Assembly (NCBI GenBank): GCA_945903615.1
Contig: CAMDOL010000034.1
Location: 1-13,576, forward strand
Direction: 5' to 3'
Source: Rickettsia typhi
Lineage (GTDB): Bacteria; Pseudomonadota; Alphaproteobacteria; Rickettsiales; UBA1997
DNA: 13,576 nucleotides
Part shown: positions 6,780 to 8,771 of the stretch, one piece after another
Numbering within the stretch: the first letter of the stretch is position 1
Layout: each line of letters begins with the position of its first letter
The notes under the pieces: model-generated
What the model saw: only the letters and a program-made list of their open reading frames with translations
Told to the model about the DNA's origin: nothing
The model's database searches: none
Made by a program: the position numbers and the translations under genes

Positions 6780-8771
6780 CTATTTCTTAATATAAATCTC
6801 TCCGCCGCTTTCCTTAAACTTCTCACTCATCTTCTCCATTCCCTTCTCTATTTCTATTTGGGGGTCAATGTTCCCCCTATTTAGGGGGAGCGAGTTTTCG
6901 TCAGAAAACGATGGGGGTGAATCTATGTTCCCCCTATTTAGGGGGAGCGAGTTTTCGTCAGAAAACGATGGGGGTGCATTTTTTTGCTTTGCCGCATATT
7001 CACGAACATCGCCGGTAATTTTCATTGAGCAAAATTTTGGCCCGCACATTGAGCAAAAATGGGCAACCTTTGCGCCTTCGGCTGGCAAGGTTTCATCGTG
7101 AAAAGATTTTGCTGTGTAAGGGTCAAGCGAAAGGTTGAATTGATCTTCCCAGCGAAATTCGAAGCGAGCTTTGGAGAGTTCGTCGTCCCAAGCTTTGGCA
7201 GTTTTATTTCCCTTCGCCAAATCTGCGGCGTGAGCGGCAATTTTGTAAGTTATAACTCCCGTTTTCACATCGTCTTTATTGGGCAATCCCAAATGCTCTT
7301 TGGGAGTCACATAGCAAAGCATTGCGGTTCCAAACCAGCCAATCATTGCCGCGCCAATTGCAGAAGTTATGTGGTCATAGCCGGGGGCAATGTCGGTGGT
7401 TAGGGGCCCAAGGGTATAGAACGGAGCTTCATAGCACCAATCAAGTTGTTTCTCCATATTTTCTTTTATCAAATGCATCGGCACATGCCCTGGTCCTTCA
7501 ACCATAACTTGGCAATTATGATTCCAAGCAATTTTGGTAAGCTCGCCCAAAGTTTTAAGTTCTGAAAGTTGCGCCTCGTCATTTGCATCAGCGATTGATC
7601 CGGGGCGAAGCCCGTCACCTAGTGAAAAAGCCACATCATATTTTGCCATAATCTCGCAGATTTCTTCAAAGTGGGTATAAAGAAAATTTTCTTGATGATG
7701 AGACAAGCACCATTTTGCCATAATTGCTCCACCACGGCTAACAATTCCAGTCAAGCGATCAGCGGTCATTGGCACATAACGAAGCAAAACTCCGGCGTGA
7801 ATTGTGAAGTAGTCAACACCTTGTTCCGCCTGTTCAATCAAAGTGTCGCGATAAACTTCCCAAGTTAGATCTTCGGCAACGCCGCCAACTTTTTCCAACG
7901 CTTGATAGATTGGAACGGTGCCAACCGGCACAGGGCAATTGCGAATGATCCATTCACGAATATTGTGAATATTTTTACCCGTAGATAAATCCATCAAAGT
8001 GTCGCCACCAAAACGCACTGACCAAATCATCTTTTCAACCTCTTCTTCAACGCCAGAAAATATCGCTGAATTGCCAATGTTGGTGTTGATTTTCACTAGA
8101 AAATTGCGACCAATAATCATTGGCTCAGACTCTGGATGGTTGATGTTATTGGGAATAATTGCTCGACCTTTGGCAATTTCATCTCTCACAAATTCAGCGG
8201 TGATAAACTCTGGAATCTTTGCTCCAAAGGTTTCTCCGCGATAATCTGGATTACGAATTTCGCCAGAGAATTTATCTTGCAAAGCCTTTCTTCCCATATT
8301 TTCACGCAGTGCGACATACTCCATTTCCTTGGTGATAATTCCTGCTTTTGCATAAGCCATTTGGGTTGGCTTTTGTCCATCTTTTGCCCGCAATGGTTTG
8401 AAGTTTGAAAGGTCAAATTCTGGAACTGAAGATTTTGCGCCTTTAATAAAAATGCCGTTATCTTCTGGTTTAACATCTCTTCCAGAATAATTCTCCACAT
8501 CGGAGCGTTCTAAAATCCAATCACGGCGCAAGGCAGGCAATCCTTTGTTCAAATCAATATTTTTACAAACTGAATCATCGGTATAAATCCCTGAAGTGTC
8601 GTAGACATCGAAAAATTTTCTGTCTGATTTTTCCGTCAAACTAATTCGGCGCATTGCAACTTTCACATCAGAAAATCTTTCGCTAGTCACATAAATTTTG
8701 GTTGAAGCGGGCAGGGCACCAAGGGTAAGACCTTGAGTCAGATTTTTGTTATCGAGTTTATTATTCAACAT
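6780..8771 (-). CDS. thiC: Phosphomethylpyrimidine synthase ThiC with an in-frame repeat insert
   Basis: Radical-SAM-type enzyme that rearranges aminoimidazole ribotide to hydroxymethylpyrimidine phosphate, the pyrimidine half of thiamine. The product is 663 residues, about 30-50 longer than most ThiC. Sequence matching the family runs throughout: [62 protein letters not shown], and the cluster-binding C573-x2-C576-x4-C581 in [13 protein letters not shown]. After REYAAKQ (residue 596) about 40 residues are inserted: an 18-residue unit, [18 protein letters not shown], occurs twice with one Ser between copies. The normal C-terminus then resumes ([20 protein letters not shown]). The insert lies past the cysteine motif in a length-variable linker, so activity is probably kept. 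No TPP riboswitch is evident upstream. The ATG at 8771 has no Shine-Dalgarno. Confidence 0.97.
6868..6976. repeat. Tandem palindromic repeat inside thiC (2 x 52 bp, 57-bp period)
   Basis: Two identical 52-nt units (6868-6919 and 6925-6976) are separated by 5 nt, giving a 57-nt period of exactly 19 codons. Each unit holds two hairpins: CCCCCT/AGGGGG around a 4-nt loop, then GTTTTC/GAAAAC around GTCA. GGGGGT also occurs just before the first unit (6860-6865). The C5/G5 runs contrast sharply with the AT-rich surroundings. Confidence 0.9.

Follow-up and report, generated by a model that had tools for sequence, protein, structure and literature searches.

What are the two palindromic units that lie inside the reading frame of thiC at this locus, and how did they come to be there? 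In the window (the whole 13,576-nt stretch of DNA that we analysed), the open reading frame list and Pfam place thiC on the minus strand at 6780..8771, where it encodes a phosphomethylpyrimidine synthase of 663 amino acids with a frame that is open across the insert. Two 57-nt units, copy 1 at 6922..6978 and copy 2 at 6865..6921 (both minus strand), stand head to tail with no spacer. They were delimited by the repeat itself and by a covariance model, R1, which was trained on both copies and scores them at 71.5 and 71.7 bits, respectively. The units have 96% identity over 57 nt, with 52 nt identical, and Tandem Repeats Finder, whose top row of 17 for the window is 6868-6976 (period 57, 100% matches, score 218), confirms the tandem arrangement described in the initial annotation. 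Both units are in frame (19 codons each), and the element peptide occurs twice in the protein. They fold better than expected singly (z = -3.0 to -3.2) and as a pair (z = -4.3).

Compared with ThiC of the type found in genome G100, the insert comprises 42 codons (N598-I639; 6855..6980, minus strand), with borders that depend on the alignment. Its net length, counted by hand, is 42 residues relative to G100-type tails and 37 relative to the ThiC protein P0009, so the initial estimate of about 40 added residues was fair. The CX2CX4C cluster motif of ThiC (CSMCGPKFC, residues 573-581, with cysteines C573, C576 and C581; 7029..7055, minus strand, located by sequence and alignment) ends well before the insert, which lies between it and the C-terminal tail as first described. 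The Pfam ThiC domain covers residues 136-586, so the insert is C-terminal to it, at a position that corresponds, in the solved ThiC chain 4s2a, to the stretch from residue 586 to residue 591. An AlphaFold model of the protein had a mean pLDDT of 47.1 and was set aside. Judging from sequence alone, the tail CCCCCAAATA that follows copy 2 (6855..6864, minus strand) may possibly be the remnant of a third, eroded copy. No Rfam family reached its gathering score in the window, and hence no TPP riboswitch is seen upstream of thiC (8772-9327).

A short tandem repeat invites the suspicion of an assembly artefact, which the initial annotation had also raised, or of a chimera, but a protein in the database (P0001) has the same two copies and, by reading, differs from the window's ThiC at two residues outside the insert. 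The array is therefore not a fault of one assembly, and we regard an artefact as scarcely plausible. Nor are the additional residues a common property of ThiC in this lineage. ThiC is present in 87 of the 174 genomes of the order that we searched, and the insert is absent from all 30 loci that were read (the best 30 of those found in these genomes), several of which are extended in that linker by other, unrelated residues. Among the best 120 of 8000 scored ThiC proteins, which vary in linker length, the insert occurs in P0001 only and is absent from the other 119.

The peptide does occur in other proteins. When only the insert region was used as query, seven proteins came up at E <= 10. Besides P0001, these were six proteins of five kinds, which we named from Pfam rows and reading as a haemagglutinin-like protein, an AddB-like nuclease, MnmA, ClpB (twice) and a MurD-like ligase. 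Searching from MnmA gave eight proteins, among which MetG, HemF and a second MnmA were new; MetG and HemF were confirmed as hosts, and one protein (P0129, E = 0.37) was accepted on reading. The element peptide is in frame, and often tandem, in MnmA, ClpB, MetG, HemF and others. MnmA has one copy in P0128 and four in P0004 (one of the four with extra residues), so arrays expand or contract at a fixed site. The ClpB protein P0005 contains the peptide of one orientation (A) and, by reading, also that of the other orientation (B), SGSPYLGGAKTMGV. The AddB-like protein P0003 also bears a second, different repeat-like peptide, CHPRLDRGFSSVSITSRIPDQIGDE.

At the nucleotide level, a pattern scan of a collection of genomes matched once, in a metagenome-assembled genome titled Rhizobium sp. 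Q54 (G001). That assembly (locus L001) groups with the Rickettsiales-like order and seems to be mislabelled. Model R1 matched 8 of the order's 174 genomes, with at most 32 candidates scored per genome. A second model, R2, applied to 14 genomes, gave 27 matches in five of them (eight in G001, 11 in G063, three in G155, four in G082 and one in G100) and weaker matches in G053 (10), G019 (two), G119 (one) and G128 (one). We examined 26 of the 27, a count that excludes G082:C10:19095 (E = 0.0056) as well as the matches in G053, G019, G119 and G128. The element lies in an open frame in 23 cases; the other three copies are within the gene for RNase P RNA (in G001, G063 and G155; loci L098, L093 and L089). 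The 23 frames run through the element, and either orientation occurs. None of the 26 copies is outside an open reading frame or RNA gene; we draw no probability from this absence of intergenic copies, because the coding fraction of the G001 pieces, 0.76 by ATG-started open reading frames of at least 80 amino acids, is crude and probably an underestimate.

The 23 hosts are diverse: MnmG, Lpd (twice), Mfd (twice), IleS, XthA (twice), a second XthA-like protein, a CopA-like oxidase (twice, in opposite orientation), FolC, ProS, GuaA, HtpG, a QueE-like protein (below the family cut-off), AroC, RecF, NuoF (twice), a CysJ-like protein and two open reading frames without a convincing family, the second Lpd, Mfd, XthA and NuoF being named via their orthologues. 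G015, the genome nearest to the window by ThiC, has no R2 match and offers empty sites in MnmG, Mfd, XthA, GuaA, HtpG, AroC, NuoF and the MurD-like gene; for FolC and P0003 the comparison showed no clean gap. An exact-pattern scan of viral contigs gave no match to the element, and neither did a search of plasmids and phages.

These results bear on the simplest account of the array, that the repeat was born in thiC by slippage and is immobile. The head-to-tail tandem layout suits that account, and hairpins favour slippage, but near-identical units are found in unrelated genes and genomes and all 30 of the related ThiC loci read are without the insert, which makes a purely local origin hardly credible. 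We think it very probable that the window's unit is instead a mobile, translated palindromic element that was duplicated within thiC; what mobilises it is a matter for proposal, taken up below. A short palindromic element of about 60 nt (57 nt here) would insert into genes and persist in them because it measures a multiple of three nucleotides and has one stop-free frame, thereby adding 19-20 translated residues. The history of thiC would then comprise a single insertion into the linker that joins the Fe-S motif to the C-terminal tail, followed by head-to-tail duplication. Slippage is a likely source of the second copy, and tandem growth in general may proceed by slippage or recombination. The initial annotation's suggestion that the duplication is recent stands as plausible, but homogenisation between the copies may also account for their likeness.

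An alignment of 21 copies defines an element of about 60 nt with a conserved start, TTATGCACCCCC, and a conserved end, GGGGGATCCT. The tandem period in the window equals one whole element. The element consists of a C5 run and, after it, two hairpins: the inner hairpin varies in sequence, and the other has the form C5-loop-G5. Compensating changes maintain the inner hairpin: 93.7% of the cells in its stem are paired and 25 are double-change cells, and none of 500 shuffles reaches either value, in an alignment that was fitted to the tested structure and so favours it. Further pair types, one of five covariation measures used, do not exceed the shuffles (449 of 500 reached the observed number). 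In the 21 aligned copies we saw neither a target-site duplication nor a clear terminal inverted repeat, the two hallmarks of MITEs.

The lengths of the copies mostly respect the reading frame of the host. Main-type copies in protein genes number 20 with the window counted in, and in 19 of these the model length (55, 58, 61, 67 or 76) is 1 modulo 3, which becomes a multiple of three with the boundaries of the 21-copy alignment. The exception is in an XthA-like gene (model length 59), and two of the three copies in rnpB also depart from the rule (model length 57). There are five copies of a longer second type, whose length varies with the model end. In 11 of 28 copies checked, including both in the window, just one of the six frames is open, and this is the frame in use in every one of the 11. 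Keeping of the frame counts against the idea that the insert is missing from the mature protein as a result of ribosomal bypass or splicing. Mitochondrial byps are also short hairpin inserts in core genes, and the likeness speaks for that idea; but bypass or splicing would not require open frames, and the host frame is open in all 23 of the protein-coding copies examined in carriers, besides the 11 of 11 that use their only open frame. Removal from the protein is thus highly improbable, and the element is probably translated as part of its host.

Where orthologous genes share an insertion site, the elements are 85-93% identical and the flanks 72-86%, the element being more alike than both flanks in seven of seven comparisons (gaps uncounted). 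This pattern hints at constraint, conversion or re-insertion. The XthA copy of G100 has an identity of 0.97 to the IleS copy of G063 and 0.86 to the XthA copy of G063, so this site has probably undergone re-insertion or conversion. Constraint at such sites would suit the view that the insert has been recruited for ThiC function, but that view must also accommodate a ThiC linker of varying length and an insert confined to P0001 among the best 120 ThiC proteins, and we consider it very unlikely. The translated element is probably close to neutral for ThiC.

Palindromes read in frame call to mind the Rickettsia palindromic elements (RPEs), which were reportedly described by Ogata et al. in 2000 and 2002 and whose movement is, to our knowledge, an open question. 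A second, smaller palindromic family, apparently from the same order and with a candidate nuclease partner, would make that question testable; both core enzymes and RNase P RNA are among the hosts of the smaller family. In three papers, RPEs are reported in frame in Rickettsia genes and also in RNA genes (PMC2229807, PMC10969869, PMC3767692). On those accounts, RPEs and the window's element are alike in being palindromic, in lying in frame in unrelated genes, where each encodes a conserved peptide, in occurring in RNA genes, and in often sharing sites in orthologues. They differ in that RPEs are described as about 100-150 bp with one long stem, whereas the window's element is about 60 bp, has two adjacent hairpins and a C5/G5 core, and occurs in tandem. 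The initial annotation had called the unit analogous to but distinct from RPEs, and that reading is supported by the recurrence of the unit in unrelated genes and by the absence of the added residues from the 30 ThiC loci and from 119 of the 120 ThiC proteins read, so that the refuting condition set there did not hold as far as it was checked; we file it among in-frame palindromic elements, but not as an RPE.

The distribution of the two families agrees with this separation, which was drawn from descriptions. TLC translocases were found in 62 of the 174 genomes, 20 of the 62 with five matches; five TLC copies we take to mark Rickettsia, and the 62 are presumably Rickettsia-like. RPEs are a family of Rickettsia, whereas R1 matched none of the 62 (at most 32 candidates scored per genome), and all eight R1-positive genomes are TLC-negative. 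Together with the source names Rickettsiaceae bacterium (for P0032) and Rickettsiales bacterium (for others), the TLC counts suggest that the order of 174 genomes is Rickettsiales.

Wolbachia palindromic elements (WPEs) are by description likewise in-frame inserts, and WPE-like inserts are reported in Wolbachia addA, addB and priA (PMC4224334). PARCEL (palindromic amphipathic repeat coding sequence) is reported as a pattern of repeat proteins that was noted first in Mollicutes (PMC2996958); it too is coding, palindromic and repeated, but unlike the window's element it does not, on that account, consist of single insertions in housekeeping enzymes.

Which enzyme could move such an element between genes? 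The hairpin architecture resembles that of REP sequences. In REP/RAYT systems, small GC-rich palindromes, mainly extragenic, have a DNA-cutting partner encoded between repeats, and the window's element might be an ordinary REP that tolerates coding sequence and is mobilised by a Y1/RAYT transposase. The Y1 family PF01797 was found in three carriers (two matches in G100, one in G063 and one below the cut-off in G001) and in none of nine other genomes searched, and other C4/G4 palindromes are present at two of the four Y1 loci (L128 and L130). However, PF01797 was unmatched in carriers G155 and G082, and a C4..G4 scan found the window's element at none of the four Y1 loci of these 12 genomes (inverted repeats were checked at three), so it does not flank a Y1 gene as a REP would. 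We therefore judge a Y1/RAYT mobiliser unlikely. Where REP/RAYT systems use Y1, the partner that we suggest for the window's element is DUF559, a domain of Vsr-like endonucleases according to work on Caulobacter (PMC12907096). In the partial literature covered, we found nothing linking DUF559 to palindromic elements.

The IleS open reading frame of G063, one of the element's hosts, also includes a DUF559 domain. Profile PF04480 was found in nine of the 14 genomes, with no match in carriers G001 and G155 or in G015. Read by eye, several DUF559 loci have the nuclease between palindromes placed as inverted pairs. We scored complementarity across the nuclease with a threshold of 13, which was reached by nine of the first 12 loci (the set-apart helicase-type L149 and L153 included, the shortened L152 excluded); the three below it are the two helicase-type fusions and G100:C30. 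The threshold was also reached by 23 of 27 further loci of the order, flanks having been scored for 37 of its 62 DUF559 matches, and by 22 of 29 loci of a class-wide sample, leaving out L200, which belongs to the order. By comparison, it was reached by 17 of 1500 random control places, drawn from the order's DNA (free of N runs) and unmatched in composition to the class loci. The palindromes are nearly self-complementary, so short flank scores indicate like palindromes on both sides and not their orientation; longer scores (28-47) support inverted orientation.

R2 matches occur at both flanks of DUF559 in IleS of G119, at one flank in IleS of G019, at one flank of a second G119 locus and at three places around DUF559 in G053, all with weak scores (E = 1e-6 to 0.06); R2 also matches arrays in G053 that adjoin no DUF559. 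In the DUF559 loci scored, the exact window sequence was not seen as paired ends, and the palindromes there are of similar architecture only. Separately, a related C5/G5 palindrome forms tandem arrays in G053 (L154, 9614-10117 and 11850-12303); these arrays are open in more than one frame and lie between other open reading frames.

DUF559 also tends to share a frame with other domains in this order. It is within open frames of at least 400 amino acids in 37 of the order's 62 matches and in six of 58 in the class sample (Fisher p = 1.2e-8; at least two of the 58 come from an order member). A motif expression for DUF559 matches in 30 of 37 cases. Hosts among the 26 longer frames scanned are IleS (12), ValS (two), DnaE (two), and Mfd, RecG, PriA, CarB, RdgB and a glutamate-synthase-like protein (one each), and the other four have no other family at the thresholds used. 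The host family was matched in at least two stretches in 14 of the 22 named hosts, and in one stretch in the rest, some of which are at contig or locus ends. In IleS, DUF559 is found in two approximate regions, around 215-280 and 350-380, given by profile positions only. DUF559 domains that share host open frames were seen at loci L141, L142, L144, L150 and L162-L188, mostly between like palindromes.

Vsr-like homing endonucleases are the natural comparison for such nucleases. As with them, a Vsr-like nuclease is found in conserved genes, and repeatedly in the same regions of IleS. The difference, to go by the open reading frames, is that the open frame can be explained without an intron or intein, the nuclease and palindromes apparently being read as part of the host protein; composites in IleS, ValS, DnaE, RecG, PriA and CarB would thus involve neither. 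We propose, as a still unproven idea, that a DUF559 nuclease moves such composites and also acts in trans on solo ends, the window's among them; the lack of DUF559 matches in G001, G155 and G015 and the weak R2 scores at DUF559 flanks count against it. The element in thiC would then be a non-autonomous end of DUF559 nuclease elements. More broadly, and tentatively, with the odds somewhat against it, DUF559 nucleases and their stop-free palindromic ends may form a new kind of mobile element that sits in frame in core genes and is translated with its host, and whose solo ends spread in trans and can multiply into tandem arrays. If so, solo ends like those in thiC add peptides to proteins, and selfish DNA has a route by which to add peptides, or a whole nuclease domain, repeatedly to core proteins.

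The window contains other repeats besides those in thiC. Upstream of the gene, at 8897-9098, is an imperfect, MITE-like inverted repeat with perfect 25-nt arms (8910-8934 and 9063-9087), which matched only itself among the loci compared. Three pairs of perfect inverted repeats of 21-29 nt, kilobases apart (4883-4911 and 10285-10313; 4535-4557 and 11366-11388; 4921-4941 and 6563-6583), are apparently other dispersed repeats.
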